Shown: positions 4,056 through 64,000 of the stretch, in pieces
Numbering within the stretch: position 1 is the first letter of the stretch
How the letters are laid out: each line of letters opens with the position of its first letter
Source: Collinsella aerofaciens
GTDB taxonomy: Bacteria; Actinomycetota; Coriobacteriia; Coriobacteriales; Coriobacteriaceae
DNA length: 64,000 nt
Direction of reading: 5' to 3'
NCBI RefSeq assembly: GCF_015670745.1
Contig: NZ_JADPCH010000001.1
Coordinates: 62,001 to 126,000, forward strand
Position numbers and translations under genes: made by a program
Notes under the pieces: generated by a model
Database searches by the model: none
Seen by the model: the letters and a program-made list of their open reading frames with translations, nothing else
Told to the model about the DNA's origin: nothing

Positions 4056-4140
4056 GGTCCTCCGCTCAAACTGTTCGCAATAATCAATGCATCCATCCTA
4101 CCCGCCCAAGCGGACAGATTTGCCCCACGCCAACAGATTT

Positions 4141-4223
4141 GATCCCTTGAGGACGGAGGAAAATGGATCACAGAGGGGGTCAGTCTAACCCGGTGATTCG
4201 TTTTCCTCCGTCCCCAAGGGATC
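4141..4223. repeat. Palindromic repeat, family C (complete copy)
   Basis: An 83-nt imperfect palindrome. The left arm contains GATCCCTTGAGGACGGAGG and the right arm contains its complement, CCTCCGTCCCCAAGGGATC. Another full copy is at 59808-59888 and half copies are at 15148, 15544 and 52110. The two full copies differ by paired substitutions. Confidence 0.85.
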
Positions 4224-4228
4224 AAAAA

Positions 4229-8305: not shown

Positions 8306-8321
8306 TCCCATCCCCTTCATA

Positions 8322-8388
8322 AGTTGCGGTGAAATAGGGACTGTTTAAACGTTTAAAACCGCCAAACAGTCCCTATTTCACCGCAACT
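8322..8388. repeat. Palindromic repeat, family B
   Basis: A 67-nt palindrome with left arm AGTTGCGGTGAAATAGGGAC and its exact complement at the right end. It lies between the convergent mnmA and M42 peptidase genes. Other copies are at 38703, 53067 and 62431. Confidence 0.9.
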
Positions 8389-8441
8389 TAGAGAGGACGG
8401 CCTCAGTCGGTACTACTGTATCAGCCGAGGCCGCTGCATCG

Positions 8442-9473
8442 TTAGCGCTGAACGTAGGCGCGAACCAGCTCGTAGGTATTGCGCACGCCGTCGATGTGGC
8501 TGCGCTCGTAGTTGTGGCTCGCGTACACGCCGGGGCCGATCAGACCATGGCGAATGTCGTAGCCGGCCGAGAGCGTGGCCTCGACGTCGGAGCCATAGTG
8601 CGGGTACACATCGATGGCGTAATCGAGCTCCAGCTCGCGCGCGATGTTGGACAGCGTGGTTACCAGGTCGTAGTTGTACGGACCGCCCGAATCCTTAGCG
8701 CAAATCGAAACCATGCGCTCGGTGCAGCCCAGGTCGTCGCCCACGCAGCCCATGTCCACGCTGATCATCTCGCGCGTGTCGGCCGGCACAAAGGCACCGC
8801 CGTGGCCGACCTCCTCGTACACCGTAAAGAGCAGCGAAACCTTGCGCGAAAGGGTCACCTCGCCGTCGGCGACAGCGCAGGCCAAACCCAGCAGAATCGA
8901 CGCGGACAGCTTGTCGTCAAGGAAGCGACTCTTGATGAAGCCGCTCTCCGTTACCGTGGTGCGCGGATCCATAGCGATGATGTCGCCGGTTTGAATACCC
9001 AGCTCGAGCACATCGTCCTTGCTGTCAACGTTCTCGTCGAGCAGGATTTCCATGTTCTTCTCGATGGTCTTGACCGGCTCATCGGCCACATGCGCCGAAG
9101 GCTCGGTATTGAGAACCACGCCCGTGTACACATTGCCGCCACGCGTGTAGACGGTGCAGTTCTCGCCATCGGCCGTAGACCACTGGTGCCCACCAAGCGT
9201 CGTGGGACGCAGGCGGCCATTGTCCTTAATGGAGCGCACCATGGCGCCCAGGGTATCGACATGGCTCGCCAACACAAGCGGCTCGCCCTCGCCGCCAAGC
9301 TCGACCAGCACGTTGCCCTTATTGGAACGCTCGGGGCCAAAGCCCATATCGCGCAACGTTTCCATTAGATAATCAGTCGCCGCACGGGTATAGCCCGTAG
9401 GCGAGGCGATAGAAGTCAGCGTCTTAAGCTGGTCAGTAATAAAACCAAGCGTAGAATCCATTTGGGACACCAT
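8442..9473 (-). CDS. M42 family aminopeptidase / deblocking peptidase
   Basis: Residues LVLASHVDTLGAMV (first metal His/Asp), FLDDKLSASILLGL (bridging Asp), LLFTVYEEVGHGGAF (Glu-Glu catalytic pair) and YERSHIDGV (C-terminal metal His) form the full set of M42 di-metal peptidase motifs. The family trims N-terminal residues from peptides and usually forms cytoplasmic dodecamers. I chose ATG 9473 (MVSQMDSTLG) because TTGGAG sits six nt upstream; MDSTLG at 9461 is an alternative. The protein is then 343 residues, normal for the family. The next gene upstream is the alcohol dehydrogenase, separated by a large palindrome. Confidence 0.9.
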   Translation of the reverse strand: MVSQMDSTLGFITDQLKTLTSIASPTGYTRAATDYLMETLRDMGFGPERSNKGNVLVELGGEGEPLVLASHVDTLGAMVRSIKDNGRLRPTTLGGHQWSTADGENCTVYTRGGNVYTGVVLNTEPSAHVADEPVKTIEKNMEILLDENVDSKDDVLELGIQTGDIIAMDPRTTVTESGFIKSRFLDDKLSASILLGLACAVADGEVTLSRKVSLLFTVYEEVGHGGAFVPADTREMISVDMGCVGDDLGCTERMVSICAKDSGGPYNYDLVTTLSNIARELELDYAIDVYPHYGSDVEATLSAGYDIRHGLIGPGVYASHNYERSHIDGVRNTYELVRAYVQR

Positions 9474-9600
9474 CCACAACTCCAAAGTCAACATCCCGTA
9501 ATCAGCAAAACCCTCAACAACGATAACACTACGCACAAATATTTACCCAGCGAGATGACCCATCGAGCTCTTCCGAACAGAGCCCACCACGATAACGAGC

Positions 9601-9730
9601 CGGCGGGCCCCTGCCCGTTAGCCCCAGAATCTTTCCGCAGGACAGAAGGAGGCCCCGCCGCACGTAGTGCGCAGCGGGGCCTCCGACATGTCCGAGGACG
9701 ATTCTGGGGCTAACGGGCAGGGGCCCGCCG
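9601..9730. repeat. Large palindromic element, family F copy 1
   Basis: Two arms of 31 nt (9601-9631 and 9700-9730) are perfect reverse complements. Between them is a core with its own GGAGGCCCCGC/GCGGGGCCTCC hairpin and the segment CCTCCGACATGTCCGAGGAC. The core recurs in inverse orientation at 62179-62301 but with different arms. It may also terminate the alcohol dehydrogenase transcript. Confidence 0.9.
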
Positions 9731-9737
9731 AGCCATG

Positions 9738-10904
9738 TTAGGCAGCCGGGCAGATCTTCTTGAAGAGCTCGATGACGTCGTCGAGCGTCGCCTCGCGCGG
9801 GTTGCCCGGGAAGCAGGCGTCGGCCATGGCGTCCTTGGCCAGGACCTCGATCTCGTCAGCCTTCATGGCCTCGCAGACGTGCGGGATGTTCACGTCGGCG
9901 GAAAGCTGCTTGACGGCGGCGATAGCGGCGTCAGCAGCCTCGTCGGTGCTCATGCCCGTGGTGTCAACGCCCATGGCAACGGCGACCTTGGCCAGGCGCT
10001 CGGCGCAAACCGGCTTGTTGAACTCCATGGCGATCGGCAGCAGCATGGCGCAAGCGACGCCGTGCGGGGTGTCGTAGTGAGCAGACAGGGTGTGAGCCAT
10101 TGCGTGGTCGATGCCCAGGCCAACGTTGGAGAAGCCCATGCCGGCGACATACTGGCCAAGGGCCATGCCCTCGCGGCCGGAGCCGGGCTGGCCGGACTTG
10201 GCCTCGGCGACGGAGTCACGCAGGTTCTCGCTGATCAGCTTAATAGCCTCAAAGTGGAACATGTCAGAGAGCTCCCAAGCACCCTTGGTGGTGTAGCCCT
10301 CGATGGCGTGGGTCAGAGCGTCCATACCAGTGGAGGCGGTCAGGCCGGCGGGCATGGAAGCCATCATGTCAGGATCGACGACGGCAACCTCGGGGGCGTC
10401 GTTGGTGTCGACGCACACGAACTTGCGGACCTTCTCGGGGTCGGTGATGACGTAGTTGATGGTCACCTCGGCGGCGGTACCGGCGGTCGTCGGCACGGCG
10501 ATGGTGAACACGGCGTGGTTCTTAGTGGGAGCAACGCCCTCGAGGCTGCGGACATCGGCGAACTCGGGATTGTTGATGATGATGCCGATGGCCTTAGCGG
10601 TGTCCATGGAGGAGCCGCCACCGATGGTCACGATAGCGTCAGCCTCGGCGGCCTTGAAGGCCTCGACGCCGTCCTTGACGTTCTGGATAGTGGGGTTGGG
10701 CTTGATCTCGGAGTAGAGGCTCCAAGCGATGCCGGCGGCGTCGAGCTCGTCGGTCACCTTAGCGGTAACGCCAAACTTGACCAGATCGGGGTCGGAGCAG
10801 ACGAAGATCTTCTTGTAGCCGCGACGCTGGAGCTCGCCGGGGATCTCCTTGATGGCGCCGGAACCATGATAAGAGATGGTATTGAGAACGAAACGATTAG
10901 CCAT
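9738..10904 (-). CDS. Iron-containing alcohol dehydrogenase, FucO (lactaldehyde reductase)-like
   Basis: A 388-residue group III dehydrogenase starting MANRFVLNTISYHG after GGGAGG. GGGSSMDTAKAI is the nucleotide-binding block. Metal ligands fall in GMDALTHAIEGY (Asp and His), GIDHAMAH (His) and YDTPHGVACAMLL (His). PTTAGTAAEVT is also typical. Sequence style is closest to FucO, which reduces lactaldehyde to 1,2-propanediol using NADH, but butanol or 1,3-propanediol dehydrogenases share the fold, so the substrate is open. No fucose or rhamnose genes are adjacent. A LacI-type operator-like palindrome lies 100 nt upstream. Confidence 0.9.
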   Translation of the reverse strand: MANRFVLNTISYHGSGAIKEIPGELQRRGYKKIFVCSDPDLVKFGVTAKVTDELDAAGIAWSLYSEIKPNPTIQNVKDGVEAFKAAEADAIVTIGGGSSMDTAKAIGIIINNPEFADVRSLEGVAPTKNHAVFTIAVPTTAGTAAEVTINYVITDPEKVRKFVCVDTNDAPEVAVVDPDMMASMPAGLTASTGMDALTHAIEGYTTKGAWELSDMFHFEAIKLISENLRDSVAEAKSGQPGSGREGMALGQYVAGMGFSNVGLGIDHAMAHTLSAHYDTPHGVACAMLLPIAMEFNKPVCAERLAKVAVAMGVDTTGMSTDEAADAAIAAVKQLSADVNIPHVCEAMKADEIEVLAKDAMADACFPGNPREATLDDVIELFKKICPAA

Positions 10905-11003
10905 TGATAGCCTCCCATCGTGTGCGGGGCACCCATTACGCCCCACGCTATGAGTCCCATCCTAACGCTTTTGAAACAAAAAACGCGTGAGAACGTCAAA
11001 CTT

Positions 11004-35710: not shown

Positions 35711-35753
35711 GCGGCGGGCGTCTTGCCGTAACGGGACCCCTCCCCGGCAATTG

Positions 35754-35810
35754 TCTCGATCTGTAACAGTTAGAACCCAAAAACCGGTCTAAATGTTACA
35801 GATTGAGACA
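35754..35810. repeat. Hairpin repeat, family A copy 2
   Basis: TCTCGATCTGTAACA, 25-nt loop, TGTTACAGATTGAGA. One G-T pair in the stem. Confidence 0.9.
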
Positions 35811-35886
35811 TTAGACCGGCTACGGCCCGCCGACCTGGCTATCACCTCGACCAATACCAGAATGTCATACATTTCAATCTCCACTG

Positions 35887-38702: not shown

Positions 38703-38769
38703 AGTTGCGGTGAAATACGGACTGTTGAGCCGCCCTAGGCCTTTAAACGGTCCGTATTTCACCGCAACT
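38703..38769. repeat. Palindromic repeat, family B copy 2
   Basis: Left arm AGTTGCGGTGAAATACGGAC with its complement at the right. It differs from the 8322 copy by a G-to-C change compensated on the other arm. It lies between copZ and csoR. Confidence 0.9.
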
Positions 38770-42458: not shown

Positions 42459-42479
42459 CGTTGCCTCCGCTGACAAATG

Positions 42480-42535
42480 TCTTGATCTGTAACAGGAAGA
42501 CAGTCTTTGAGCCTCTAGTTGTTACAGAACAAGAT
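42480..42535. repeat. Hairpin repeat, family A copy 4
   Basis: TCTTGATCTGTAACA, 25-nt loop, TGTTACAGAACAAGA. Two stem mismatches. It begins 22 nt before the nuclease-like gene's start. Confidence 0.88.
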
Positions 42536-42559
42536 CTTTCGGCAGCCGCCAACCTTCCG

Positions 42560-42616
42560 TCTCAATCTGTAACAGTTACGGGCCCAAACAGCCGCCAAAC
42601 GTTACAGATTGAGACA
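42560..42616. repeat. Hairpin repeat, family A copy 5
   Basis: TCTCAATCTGTAACA and GTTACAGATTGAGACA. It is 80 bp from copy 4, the same period as the arrays near mntH. Confidence 0.9.
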
Positions 42617-50143: not shown

Positions 50144-50360
50144 TCTCAATCTGTAACAGGAGGAGCCGGTTTTGGCGCTTAGATGTTACAGCTTGAGATT
50201 TTCTGCAGGACAGTTTTGGTTTGTCTCGATCTGTAACACGAAGGGCCGGTTTTTGCAGCTAACTGTTACAGATCGAGATTTTCCATAGAACCATTTCTTC
50301 CTGTCTTGATCTGTAACAGCTAGGCCCAATTTCCATCCCTAGTTGTTACAGATCAAGACA
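50144..50360. repeat. Family A hairpin array 1: three copies with an 80-bp period
   Basis: Copies at 50144-50199, 50224-50279 and 50304-50360. Left arms read TCTCAATC, TCTCGATC and TCTTGATC, each followed by TGTAACA. The right arms of the second and third copies change to match; the first has one mismatch. Each loop is 25 nt. It lies upstream of mntH. Confidence 0.95.
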
Positions 50361-51737: not shown

Positions 51738-51766
51738 TGGGACGGGGCACCTACCCAGGCAAACGT

Positions 51767-52060
51767 CTCGATCTGTAACATCTAGACACGCTTTTGATGT
51801 CTAGATGTTACAGATCGAGATCATTCCGAGGGACAGCTCCGTTTGTCTCAATCTGTAACACGTAGACCCCGTTTTCACTGCTAGATGTTACAGATTGAGA
51901 TCTTCTGCCGGACGGTTTTGGTTTGTCTTGATCTGTAACAAGTGGGCCCAATTTCCACTTCTAGATGTTACGGATCGAGACATTTCTTCAGCTCCAACCT
52001 TTTGTCTCAATCTGTAACAGAAAGACCCGTTTTGAGCCGTTAGATGTTACAGATTAAGAC
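51767..52060. repeat. Family A hairpin array 2: four copies with an 80-bp period
   Basis: Copies at 51767-51822, 51846-51901, 51926-51982 and 52005-52060. All have 15-nt arms and 25-nt loops with a central T run. Left arms alternate TCTCGATC, TCTCAATC, TCTTGATC, TCTCAATC. The first two have perfectly matching right arms. It begins 30 nt after the mntH stop. Confidence 0.95.
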
Positions 52061-52109
52061 CAAAGGTCGGCCGGACTCACGACAGACAGGATCGGCTAAC
52101 AGCAGCCGT

Positions 52110-59756: not shown

Positions 59757-59807
59757 GGCGCCTCCTAACTATCGATTGCCGTTTACATCCCAAGAGTCTA
59801 CCCAAAT

Positions 59808-59888
59808 GATCCCTAGGGGACGAAGGAAAACGGATCACATAGATAGACCAGCGCCACGATGATCCGTTTCCTTCGTCCCCTAGGAATC
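59808..59888. repeat. Palindromic repeat, family C (second complete copy)
   Basis: GATCCCTAGGGGACGAAGG with the complement CCTTCGTCCCCTAGG at the right. Compared with 4141-4223 a G-to-A change in the stem is matched by C-to-T on the other side. Confidence 0.9.
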
Positions 59889-59892
59889 AAAA

Positions 59893-59946: not shown

Positions 59947-60867
59947 CTACACGCGCAGGTAGCGGCGCATGGCGATGGCAGAACCAAAGAGACCGATAAT
60001 CACGCCGACCAGAATCAGCGCAGCATAGGTCACCAGGTAGTACTGCATCGGCAGGGCAAACGACATCCAGCCGATGCTCTCCTGCAGACGCGGAATCATC
60101 AGATTGCGCAGCAGCTCCAGAACGCCGATGGAAAGCAGCGAGCCCAAAATGGCCTGCAGCACGCCCTCGGTGATAAACGGGCCGCGAATGAAGCCGTTGC
60201 TGGCACCGACCAGACGCATAATCGCAATCTCACGACGACGCGCCGTGATGGACAGGCGAATCGTGTTGTTGATAAAGATGAACGCGATAAAGGTCAGCAG
60301 GCCGACGAGCACCACGGCGGCAATACGGATGTAGTTGGTCACCTGGAACAGGCGGCTTACTTCCTCCTGGCCATACAGTACGCTCGCGTTGACGTCGCCG
60401 TCGTCCGCGATCTTTTGGAAGTCGGCATTCTTCTTGAGCTTCTTGGCCGTGCTCTCGACCTGAGACGGATCGTCCATCTCAATCGCAAACGAGGCGGGCA
60501 GCGGGTTCTGGCCGTCGAGCGCGCTCATGGTGGCGTCGGCGTTACCCGACATCTTGCTCGTATACTCGGCCAGCGCGTCGTCCTTGTCCTTATAGGTCAC
60601 GGACTTGACGTTGCTCCACGTCTTGAGCTCGGCCTCAAAAGCCTGAACATCGGCCTGATCGGCGTCATCACTAATGAACGCGTTGATGACAACCTGATCC
60701 TCGACGGTGCCGATCACGGAGTTCAGCATCGCGGAGCCCATGATGAACAGGCCGATGATAAACAGCGAAAGGAAGATCGTGATGACGGCGCCGAGCGAGG
60801 TAGTCCAGTTACGGAAGAAGTGGCTGATTGCCTCTTTGAAGGAGTAGCCCACGTTAGTTGGTGCCAT
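59947..60867 (-). CDS. ftsX: Cell division ABC transporter permease FtsX
   Basis: A 306-residue membrane protein (MAPTNVGYSFKEAISHFFRN). One N-terminal transmembrane helix precedes an extracellular domain of about 120 residues (VINAFISDDADQADVQAFEA), then three C-terminal helices, with the cytoplasmic segment ITARRREIAIMRLVGASNGF diagnostic of FtsX. With FtsE it couples cell division to activation of peptidoglycan hydrolases. It overlaps the end of ftsE by 14 nt. No PcsB/RipC-like hydrolase is adjacent. Confidence 0.96.
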   Translation of the reverse strand: MAPTNVGYSFKEAISHFFRNWTTSLGAVITIFLSLFIIGLFIMGSAMLNSVIGTVEDQVVINAFISDDADQADVQAFEAELKTWSNVKSVTYKDKDDALAEYTSKMSGNADATMSALDGQNPLPASFAIEMDDPSQVESTAKKLKKNADFQKIADDGDVNASVLYGQEEVSRLFQVTNYIRIAAVVLVGLLTFIAFIFINNTIRLSITARRREIAIMRLVGASNGFIRGPFITEGVLQAILGSLLSIGVLELLRNLMIPRLQESIGWMSFALPMQYYLVTYAALILVGVIIGLFGSAIAMRRYLRV

Positions 60868-62074
60868 AGTTGCCGTAACCTCCCCTCTCCTGGTCGCGGA
60901 TAACGTGGCCGCCCTCGAGGGCGATCACGCGACGGTGCATGCTATCGACCATCTCGCGGTCGTGCGTGGCAACGATTACGGTGGTGCCGGTGCGGTTAAT
61001 ACGCTCGAGCAGCTTCATGATGCCCAGCGAGATCGCCGGGTCGAGGTTACCCGTGGGCTCGTCGCAGATCAGCAGCGGCGGGCGGTTGACCATAGCGCGG
61101 GCGACGGCAACGCGCTGCTGCTCGCCACCGGAAAGCTGGTCGGGCAGCGAGTCCATCTGATCGGCCAGGCCGACCAGACGCAGCACCTCGGGCACCTGGC
61201 TGCGAATGACGCCCTTGGGCTTGCCGATACACTGCAGGGCAAACGCCACGTTTTCGTAGGCGGTTTTTTGCGGCAGAAGCTTAAAGTCCTGGAACACGGC
61301 GCCAATCTGGCGGCGCAGGAACGGAACCTTGCGGTTCTTGATCTTCATGAGGTCCTGACCGGCAACCAGGATGCGACCGCTCGTCGGCTTGACGTCACGG
61401 TTGAGCGTCGACAGCAGCGTGGTCTTACCCGAGCCGGAGTGACCGACCAGGAAGACGAACTCGCCCGGATAGATCTCGATGTTGATGTCGTCGAGTGCAG
61501 GCTTGTTGGGCTGTGCCGGATAGATCTTGGTGACATGCTCCATAAGGATGACGGGCTCGACACCGGCCTGCTTGGCCATCTTCTTGCGGCTGGCCTGCGG
61601 ATCGATGGGTGCAAACACCGACGTAAAATCGGGGTTGTTGAGCGCGTTATCGAGGCTTGCGACCTCGGCGGCCTGATCGCTCTCGACCACCGGGGCAGCA
61701 GGCTGCGTGGGGTCGGGAATAGCGGCAAAGAGACCGGACTGCGCAGACTGAGGAGCCGGCGTCGCAGGGGCCATGGGGTCGGGAATGCCGGCCATGGTAG
61801 GCTGCGGCGTGGCGGCGCCAGCCTGAGGCTGCTCCACGCGAGCGGTCACGGCCTGAACGGGCTCAAAACCCGCCGTGCCGGAAAGCGCGACATCGCTGGT
61901 TGGATTGTAGGCAAAGGGATCGGATGCCGGCTGTGCCTGATCTGCCGGCTGAGCGGGGGCCTGAGCAACAGGCTGGCCCTCTGAATCCGGAGTGGCGAAA
62001 CGACTGCCCTGGACGCCTGCCTGCGTCTTGGGGGCATCATCGCCCGCACCGGAGGTACGGAAGTGGTTACCCAC
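60854..62074 (-). CDS. ftsE: Cell division ATPase FtsE with a 170-residue disordered N-terminal extension
   Basis: A 406-residue protein. The ABC domain begins near residue 174 (EPVILMEHVTKIYPAQPNKP): Walker A GHSGSGKTT at 211-219, VFQDFKLLPQKTAYENVAFA, signature LSGGEQQRVAVARAMV, Walker B LLICDEPTG and H-loop VATHDREMV. Usual FtsE is about 230 residues. Here residues 1-170 are rich in Pro, Ala and Gln with repeated IPDPxxPAxP-like stretches. GTG 62074 has AAGGAG five nt upstream, so the extension is probably translated. An internal start at MAKQAGVEP is the alternative. Coupled to ftsX. Confidence 0.93.
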   Translation of the reverse strand: MGNHFRTSGAGDDAPKTQAGVQGSRFATPDSEGQPVAQAPAQPADQAQPASDPFAYNPTSDVALSGTAGFEPVQAVTARVEQPQAGAATPQPTMAGIPDPMAPATPAPQSAQSGLFAAIPDPTQPAAPVVESDQAAEVASLDNALNNPDFTSVFAPIDPQASRKKMAKQAGVEPVILMEHVTKIYPAQPNKPALDDINIEIYPGEFVFLVGHSGSGKTTLLSTLNRDVKPTSGRILVAGQDLMKIKNRKVPFLRRQIGAVFQDFKLLPQKTAYENVAFALQCIGKPKGVIRSQVPEVLRLVGLADQMDSLPDQLSGGEQQRVAVARAMVNRPPLLICDEPTGNLDPAISLGIMKLLERINRTGTTVIVATHDREMVDSMHRRVIALEGGHVIRDQERGGYGNYGTN

Positions 62075-62178
62075 TGGTGCTCCTTATCGTCGTGCGTTTA
62101 AACTACATGAGCGCTTTGTATTTTAGCAGCATTAGCTTTGCTGCACATAAGAAGCATGGCGTGCTTAGGGATCCCGTC
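62075..62178. other. ftsE leader
   Basis: About 100 nt upstream of ftsE; no promoter boxes are obvious. Confidence 0.4.
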
Positions 62179-62301
62179 GGCCGGGCACAGGGTTACTCTC
62201 GAAATCGTCCTCGGACATGTCGGAGCCCCCGCTGCGCGCTTCGCGCGGCAGGGGCTCCTCCGTCCTGCGGAAAGATATGGAGAGTAACCCTGTACGCGGC
62301 C
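62179..62301. repeat. Large palindromic element, family F copy 2
   Basis: Arms at 62179-62200 and 62280-62301 are complementary with two mismatches. The core, read on the minus strand, repeats that of 9601-9730, including CTTTCCGCAGGAC and CTCCGACATGTCCGAGGAC. Confidence 0.88.
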
Positions 62302-62430
62302 TGCGGCTACTAAGGGGCCGCCGCGTTTATCTTGGGGTGCTGCATATACAAAGTTGGAAGGGTCTGAATTGCACTTTGCCGATATATGCCCTTTTCCCTG
62401 ATGGGACCGTGCTTGAGGGGCGTCTTCATA

Positions 62431-62496
62431 AGTTGCGGTGAAATAGGGACTGTTGAGCCTTTAAGCTTGCAAAACAGTCCTTATTTCACCGCAACT
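62431..62496. repeat. Palindromic repeat, family B copy 4
   Basis: AGTTGCGGTGAAATAGGGAC with near-perfect complement at the right. Confidence 0.9.
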
Positions 62497-62599: not shown

Positions 62600-63541
62600 T
62601 TATGCCAAGAACTCCTTGGTGGTCGCCACGATGTTGGCGGCGTCCAGGCCGTACCTGTGCAGGAGCTCGGCACCCGGGCCGGACTCGCCGAACGTGTCGT
62701 TGACGCCGATCTTCTTGAGCGGCGTCGGGCACTGCTCGCACAGGACATCGGCAACGGCGCTGCCCAGGCCACCGATCACGGAGTGCTCCTCGACGGTCAC
62801 GACGTGGCCGGTCTTGGTGGCGCTCTTGACGATCAGGTCGGAGTCGATGGGCTTAATGGTGTGCATGTTGATGACCTCGGCGTCGATACCCTCGGCAGCA
62901 AGCTGCTCGGCAGCCTCGAGGGCCTCGCCGACCATCAGACCGCAGGCAATGATGGTAACGTCGGCGCCCTCGCGCATGATGATGCCCTTGCCCAGTTCAA
63001 ACTTGTAGGTCTCGGGGTCATTAATGACCGGCGAGGCTAGACGGGCGAAGCGCATGTACACAGGGCCGTCGCACTCGTAGGCGGCGCGCGTCACGGCGCG
63101 GGCCTCGACATCGTCAGCGGGAACAATCACGGTCATGCCGGGGATGACGCGCATCAGGGCGATATCCTCGCAGCACTGGTGCGTGGCGCCGTCCTCGCCC
63201 ACCGAGATACCGGCGTGCGTGGCACCGATCTTAACGTTAAGGTGCGGATAGCCGATGGAGTTGCGGACCTGCTCAAAGGCGCGGCCAGCAGCGAACATGG
63301 CAAAGCTGCTCGCGAAGGCAACGCGGCCGGTGGTCGCGATACCGGCGGCAACACCCATCAGGTTGCTCTCGGCAATGCCCACATCGAAAAAGCGGTCGGG
63401 GCGGACTGCCTTGAACTTGCCGGTCTGCGTGGCGGCGGCCAGGTCGGCGTCGAGGACCACAAAGTCATCGTGCTCGTTGGCGAGCTCGACGAGGGCCTCG
63501 CCGTAGCTTACGCGCGTGGCGATTTTCTTGACATCTGCCAT
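62600..63541 (-). CDS. Transketolase C-terminal subunit
   Basis: A 313-residue protein starting MADVKKIATRVSYGEALVEL. It contains the pyrimidine-binding domain (DADLAAATQTGKF, VGIAESNLMGVAAG, HAGISVGEDGATHQC) and the C-terminal transketolase domain (VITVEEHSVIGGLGSAVADV region). Together with the N-terminal subunit it forms the split transketolase common in anaerobes, which moves two-carbon units in the pentose phosphate pathway. It starts 1 nt after the stop of the upstream gene, so both are made together. Confidence 0.95.
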   Translation of the reverse strand: MADVKKIATRVSYGEALVELANEHDDFVVLDADLAAATQTGKFKAVRPDRFFDVGIAESNLMGVAAGIATTGRVAFASSFAMFAAGRAFEQVRNSIGYPHLNVKIGATHAGISVGEDGATHQCCEDIALMRVIPGMTVIVPADDVEARAVTRAAYECDGPVYMRFARLASPVINDPETYKFELGKGIIMREGADVTIIACGLMVGEALEAAEQLAAEGIDAEVINMHTIKPIDSDLIVKSATKTGHVVTVEEHSVIGGLGSAVADVLCEQCPTPLKKIGVNDTFGESGPGAELLHRYGLDAANIVATTKEFLA

Positions 63542-63542
63542 C

Positions 63543-64000
63543 CTAGAGCTCCTCTCCGGCGGCCGTGAGCTCTGCCATGGCCTGCTCAAACTGTTCATCG
63601 TTGGGGGCCTTACCGTGCCAACCCACCTGGTTCTCCATAAAGGAGACGCCCTTGCCCTTTGTGGTCTCGGCGATAATGGCGGTCGGCTGACCCTTGGTGG
63701 CGCGAGCCTCGGCAAAAGCGGCGCGAATCTGATCGAAGTCGTTGCCGTCGGCGAGCTCCACCACATGGAACTTAAAGGCGCGGAACTTGTCGGCGAGCGG
63801 CATGGGGTCGTTGACCTCCTCGACGGGGCCATCGATCTGCAGACCGTTGTGGTCGACGATCACGCAGAGGTTGTCGAGCTGCTGGTTGCCGGCAAACATG
63901 GCGGCCTCCCAGACCTGGCCTTCCTCGCTCTCACCATCGCCCAGCAGGGCGTACGTGCGGTAAGTATCGCCCCAGTGCTTAGCGGCAACGGCCATGCCCA
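63543..64000 (-). CDS. Transketolase N-terminal subunit (5' end outside window)
   Basis: About 152 C-terminal residues are visible. GDGESEEGQVWEAAMFAGNQ is the thiamine-diphosphate and Mg2+ motif (GDG...N region), followed by LCVIVDHNGLQIDGPVEEV and AIIAETTKGKGVSFMENQVG, as in the TPP-binding half of transketolases. The protein ends AMAELTAAGEEL. The gene continues past the right edge. It is coupled to the C-terminal subunit. Confidence 0.93.
   Translation of the reverse strand, partial: GMAVAAKHWGDTYRTYALLGDGESEEGQVWEAAMFAGNQQLDNLCVIVDHNGLQIDGPVEEVNDPMPLADKFRAFKFHVVELADGNDFDQIRAAFAEARATKGQPTAIIAETTKGKGVSFMENQVGWHGKAPNDEQFEQAMAELTAAGEEL

Follow-up and report, generated by a model that had tools for sequence, protein, structure and literature searches.

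The window analyzed here is a 64,000-nucleotide stretch of a Collinsella aerofaciens genome (C. aerofaciens complex), assembled as 2.11 Mb in 44 contigs, and it contains two copies of a long hairpin element. Copy 1 (9601..9730, minus strand in gene sense) is detected by inverted-repeat search and by R2, a model of the family that includes the outer arms (match at 9603-9728 minus, 121.3 bits, E=7.1e-27). It lies between two co-directional genes, an iron-containing alcohol dehydrogenase gene located upstream in sense (lactaldehyde-reductase-like; 9738..10946, minus strand; NCBIfam and Pfam) and an M42-family peptidase gene located downstream (8442..9536, minus strand). The alcohol dehydrogenase stop codon is separated from the outer arm by 7 nt. 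The 5′ arm (9700..9730, minus strand) and the 3′ arm (9601..9631, minus strand), both named in gene sense, are complementary at 31 of 31 positions, the same count as in the original prediction made from the sequence of this locus. The arms enclose a conserved core (9634..9700, minus strand) with the structure CGTCCTC - inner hairpin - CTGCGGA, which is invariant in an alignment of 24 copies (A2) and includes an internal loop in which UC (9694-9695) stands opposite UGC (9637-9639).

Copy 2 (62178..62302, plus strand, oriented as in the family model; R2 match of 109.0 bits, E=6.4e-24) is flanked by an FtsE-like ABC ATPase gene, whose 5′ end points towards it (60854..62074, minus strand), and by a transketolase C-subunit gene about 300 nt away (62600..63832, minus strand), both identified by family assignment. 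No sense-strand gene end lies alongside copy 2. Copy 1 has a sense stop codon no more than about 45 nt away; copy 2 and its orthologues do not. Inverted-repeat search places the arms of copy 2 at 62174..62206 (5′) and 62274..62306 (3′), both on the plus strand, with 82% complementarity over 33 nt, in agreement with the 20 of 22 pairs predicted for the inner arms. Its core occupies 62206..62271 on the plus strand, with UC (62211-62212) opposite UGC (62266-62268). As predicted, the two copies share a core of about 70 nt on opposite strands, with 89% identity, and both match R2 with the UCC-UC...UGC-GGA internal loop. Compared to shuffled sequence, the folding z-scores of copies 1 and 2 are -16.4 and -6.8 as DNA, and -15.4 and -9.2 as RNA, respectively.

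The general anatomy of the element, read in gene sense, consists of the stop codon, a spacing of about 7 to 41 nt, a base motif [U/C]C-GG, the 5′ arm and CG-UCC-UC, followed by the inner helix, UGC-GGA-RUG, the 3′ arm and CC-UGCG. The element is 83-136 nt long, with arms of 27-30 bp. The internal loop formed by UCC/GGA and UC/UGC is invariant in all 24 diverged copies of A2, while the inner helix (GGAC..GUCC, continued by a GC-rich stem whose triloop is UUC or UAC) covaries between GGAC/GUCC, GACC/GGUC and GCAC/GUGC. In other Collinsella species, a shortened version (about 83 nt) has the same loop and a minimal inner hairpin, e.g., GGCCUUCGGCC. Outside the arms, many copies have at their base a motif resembling the internal loop: [U/C]C-GG is present in 60 of 88 cases against a background of 8%, and CC-UGCG in 35 of 88 against 6%. 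At a P-type ATPase (zntA-like) site, two alleles (G002:C1 951185 and G001:C1 922105) have the same outer arms and different inner hairpins, indicating that inner and outer modules can be swapped independently of each other.

The family is largely confined to one genus. A covariance model restricted to the core (R1) finds copies in 26 of the 45 Collinsella genomes, usually 8-12 in each, and none in any other genus among the 110 genera of the class searched. An exact core pattern applied to 84,980 species genomes returns at least 115 stretches, nearly all of them from Collinsella among the matches listed; the three core matches outside Collinsella (Streptomyces, a Lambdaproteobacteria MAG and a Ruminococcus MAG) are flanked by sequences that do not pair and were rejected as chance. 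With R2, 39 of the 45 Collinsella genomes have matches at E 0.01 or better, with 14-29 per genome in the C. aerofaciens complex and fewer in other Collinsella, these raw counts being inflated by second-strand hits and by some palindromes with other cores, which R2 also matches. Weaker R2 matches occur in 11 genomes from five Coriobacteriales genera other than Collinsella (E 0.001 or better). Phage records and viral contigs contain no match to the element, and the plasmid records contain one, in a Collinsella record. The search of Rfam 15 returned no family above the gathering threshold, the sub-threshold hits at the element being only microRNA models and other long hairpins, and no known insertion element was matched. 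In particular, the Collinsella-1 RNA motif (RF01700), a candidate structured RNA found in Actinobacteria and in the human gut (PMC2864571), gives no cmscan match up to E 1 on six element-bearing loci. Fremin and Bhatt (2021) listed 250 palindromic structured-RNA candidates from human microbiomes, some of which were suggested to be REPs; their main text describes no such Collinsella element. The family is thus previously uncatalogued, having no Rfam entry and no description in the literature searched.

The original prediction stated that the arms of the two copies are unrelated in sequence yet always pair. The pairing extends to the whole family. Searching with the core alone, as had been proposed, and therefore blind to the arms, yields 127 distinct Collinsella copies, all of which have complementary arms and none of which has arms that fail to pair: the number of Watson-Crick pairs has a median of 25 of 25 and a minimum of 17, compared to a median of 9 in a control region 60 nt further out. 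Covariance analysis gives the same picture, since 28 of the 28 arm pairs in A2 change on both sides, 98.5% of cells pair, and the covariation score is 0.881 versus 0.210 for shuffled and at most 0.235 for slid alignments; the rows of A2 were picked for good pairing, and the arms-blind set of 127 provides the unbiased result. Pairing amounts to 24.2 of 25 positions within a site and to 10.8 of 25 between sites, and completely different alleles that nonetheless pair can be found at one and the same site (ppc in L005 and L075, ilvE in L004 and L079, pta in L190 and L188). The arms are, however, not wholly unrelated. The 17 nt beside the core share the loose consensus GGGNTTACYTYCCRAAR (25 diverged copies), so that the arms are homologous, having diverged in a concerted manner from a shared ancestral sequence. 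Insertion into palindromes that were already in place was rejected, given this shared consensus and the recurrence of the base motif outside the arms.

How pairing is maintained is a separate question, and here the claim of the original prediction that the paired arms strongly indicate selection on a closing stem goes beyond what covariation shows, real as the pairing is. Among 121 distinct elements, the arm cells that depart from Watson-Crick pairing comprise 27 G-U, 24 A-C and 38 other combinations. In gene sense, G-U is therefore not in excess over A-C, whereas selection at the RNA level should favor it, and covariation alone does not prove such selection. Template switching is reported to homogenize the arms of inverted repeats and to invert their spacers (PMC8604942), and also to create or maintain perfect stems, including RNA stems (PMC8794818). 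The equal rarity of G-U and A-C suggests that arm-to-arm template switching may maintain the pairing. Between alleles whose adjacent gene ends are 97-99% identical, concerted double changes (mean 3.4) outnumber one-arm changes (mean 1.2), a comparison in which recombination may make the alleles older than their flanks. The asd copy L322 (G031:C16 8132-8215) is reversed in orientation to its gene, as spacer inversion by a template switch would give. These three observations, i.e., the lack of a wobble excess, the concerted changes and the reversed spacer, favor the view that covariation is a mutational by-product of template switching, in which case the closing stem need not be under selection and several other functions would be compatible with it. 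We consider this somewhat doubtful, as it does not account for an internal loop that is both asymmetric and invariant, for the persistence of the element at the same genes across long divergence, or for its fixed orientation. The loop in particular has stayed invariant although homogenization would tend to erase it, a point in favor of selection acting on the core. The complementarity of the arms probably reflects both selection for the stem and arm-to-arm copying through template switching during replication. Because related strains differ in their arms but keep the asymmetric loop, the element offers an unusually clean natural test of whether long perfect stems are kept by selection via wobble intermediates or by template switching.

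The position of the element relative to genes is largely constant. In 12 of 14 site groups it lies 3′ of a stop codon in gene sense, and in the complete genome G002, 15 of the 17 family copies are located 9-41 nt past a sense stop, none past an antisense stop, and 2 in neither position. Four of these 15 copies follow genes on the lagging strand (dnaA at 1.7506 Mb) and are still in gene sense; orientation thus follows the gene and not the replication fork, and a replication-strand bias was rejected as its cause. The exceptions to the sense-stop rule are window copy 2 with its orthologues, one copy near oppF and the reversed asd copy. According to family assignments (including NCBIfam and Pfam) or readings of translations, the upstream genes encode enzymes of carbon metabolism (pyruvate:ferredoxin oxidoreductase (PFOR), phosphate acetyltransferase (Pta), class II aldolase (Fba) and PEP carboxylase (PEPC)), enzymes of amino-acid metabolism (aspartate-semialdehyde dehydrogenase (Asd), branched-chain aminotransferase and homoserine kinase (ThrB)), and a glycyl-radical protein, GroEL, a MIP channel, P-type ATPases, an oligopeptide ABC ATPase and an esterase, to which are added the iron-containing alcohol dehydrogenase of window copy 1 and, in other genomes, PFK. 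In more distant species, the element follows ThrB, Pta, GroEL, Asd, PFOR, S10, L24, FtsZ and FtsX. In distant species the same genes bear the element with wholly different arms, as for PFOR (G017, G023), ThrB (G014, G037, G041), Pta (G029), Asd (G043) and GroEL (G030, G042, G043). A mid-operon position of the copy following L24, with L5 as the next gene, would argue against termination, but the gene that comes next is an oxidoreductase, and this argument was dropped.

Of the three options offered in the original prediction, a structured RNA fits best, since copies lie just 3′ of stop codons in a single fixed orientation; a hairpin-end mobile element and a replication or recombination site are unsupported. 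The reading that we favor, to which we give roughly an even chance, is that of a dispersed family of long 3′-UTR hairpins, similar to REPs, acting on the mRNA of the upstream gene. The element would be transcribed together with this gene, and the transcript would form a highly stable stem that stops 3′-to-5′ exonucleases. By analogy with REP stabilizers, the stem would then set and stabilize the 3′ ends of mRNAs from highly expressed genes, while the invariant UCC-UC/UGC-GGA internal loop would be a putative binding site for an RNA-binding protein or nuclease. This reading is supported by the stop-adjacent position, the gene-sense orientation, the occurrence at the same genes across distant species and the covariation of the arms and of the inner helix around an invariant loop. 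It also finds support in the fact that most copies have no T-run after the stem while separate canonical terminators lie beyond some of them, and in the precedent of REPs near stop codons and of REP-stabilized mRNAs (PMC12306157). It is weakened by the lack of a G-U excess, by copy 2, the oppF-side copy and the reversed L322, and by pta alleles without the element, which resemble deletions between GGGAC repeats and may be viable. The 3′-UTR hairpin would then be a candidate shared element, absent from Rfam, on many central metabolic genes of a common gut genus, the genes so marked including PFOR, Pta, PFK, Fba, PEPC and the glycyl-radical protein, and also GroEL. In a bolder version, which we put forward tentatively and judge rather unlikely, the hairpins would constitute a lineage-specific 3′-UTR regulon, in which an RNA-binding protein or nuclease dedicated to them would read the loop, which has its echo about 28 bp away at the base of the stem, and would jointly control central carbon, amino-acid and chaperone mRNAs, while template switching keeps rewriting the arms and leaves the stem unbroken.

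REPs are dispersed extragenic palindromes, located mostly just 3′ of coding regions, in many cases no more than 20 nt from the stop codon, which serve as targets of insertion sequences and in known cases stabilize mRNA or affect translation (PMC3733652, PMC12306157). The Collinsella element resembles the REPs and BIMEs of E. coli and others (GTAG- or CGTC-tagged) in its extragenic location, predominantly 3′ of genes. However, REPs are 20-40 bp long, their stems are conserved and they bear a GTAG or CGTC tag, whereas the Collinsella element is 83-136 nt long, with a conserved internal loop inside arms that turn over and one fixed orientation to the gene. The unpaired GTAG/CGTC end tag of REPs is not found; CGTC lies inside the stem, between the arms and the internal loop. 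A survey of CGTC-tagged REPs covered five phyla, with no Actinobacteria among them (PMC3733652). The element therefore resembles REPs in place and probable role and differs from them in tag, in size and in having variable, always-paired arms around an invariant loop. A palindromic repeat of REP or MITE type, spread by transposition and accumulating harmlessly 3′ of genes with no host function, would account for a dispersed multi-copy family found mostly in one genus, for a preference for gene 3′ ends that known REPs share (PMC3733652), and for the exchange of inner hairpins within the same arms at the zntA-like site. We nevertheless find such an origin unlikely: orientation to the gene is 15 to 0 in G002 regardless of replication direction, the same genes bear the element across distant species, and the outer arms differ between sites and are not the conserved terminal inverted repeats of MITEs or insertion elements. 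No transposase gene flanks the copies in the loci examined, and neither precise empty sites nor target duplications are seen at the two sites examined, pta and pfk, where the alleles without the element (at pfk, L219, between GAAAT repeats) resemble products of deletion between 5-nt repeats and not targets that never received an insertion. Insertion elements instead interrupt the hairpin. At the pta locus L245 (G001:C1), IS3-family and IS110-family elements lie inside it, directly 3′ of CGTCCTG, a junction also seen in L006 and L189, and in L008 and L009 other insertions are found at the apical loop.

Intrinsic (Rho-independent) terminators are likewise GC-rich hairpins shortly past a stop codon, and the element could be a non-canonical terminator devoid of a U-tract that replaces ordinary ones after these genes. 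At pfk, 6 of the 7 other Collinsella species listed (L238-L244) have an ordinary U-tract terminator at the place that is occupied, in the C. aerofaciens group, by the element or by another long hairpin, and a crude scan of the next 450 nt finds no canonical terminator for most copies. We hold this to be quite unlikely, as the element is much longer than such terminators, mostly lacks the T-run, can be followed by a canonical terminator, which is kept downstream at pta, PFOR (G023) and asd (G043), and has an invariant internal loop that termination would not need.

The least probable alternative, which we regard as improbable, is a DNA-level site, i.e., a cruciform or single-stranded hairpin recognized by gyrase, a nucleoid protein or a transposase: REPs bind gyrase, the equal rarity of G-U and A-C looks as if pairing were judged in DNA, and IS elements insert in the apical or internal loop, but a fixed orientation that ignores replication direction and a short distance to the stop codon are unexpected for a DNA palindrome.

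Other palindromic sequences were noted alongside this family. At the pfk 3′ end, some C. aerofaciens-complex genomes (L224, L229, L230, L233-L236) have, instead of the family element, a different long hairpin with GGGCCCTCCGACCCCGCCCGACG arms and the loop CTCCTCCCTTGACTCCGTCAAAGGTCG. Outside the window, a second hairpin family (L367 (G002:C1 632950-633063), L370, L377, L379, L380, L070 and L163) has the core AGTTCCGCACGAGCCGAAGAGCACTTAATGTGCTCTTCGTGCGAGCAGGACTGT in arms of about 28 bp that differ between copies yet pair. Within the window, the intergenic palindromes at 8320-8390, 38703-38769 and 62431-62496 have the common arm AGTTGCGGTGAAATA(G/C)GGACTGTT and form a separate family with conserved arms. 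Clustered inverted repeats with TGTCTCGATCTGTAACA (35743-35819, 50222-50360, 51766-51900, 51994-52070 and 42475-42588) represent another repeat family, and the inverted repeats TTTGATCCCTTGAGGACGGAGGAAAATG and relatives, at 4138-4226 and 59807-59889, a third.
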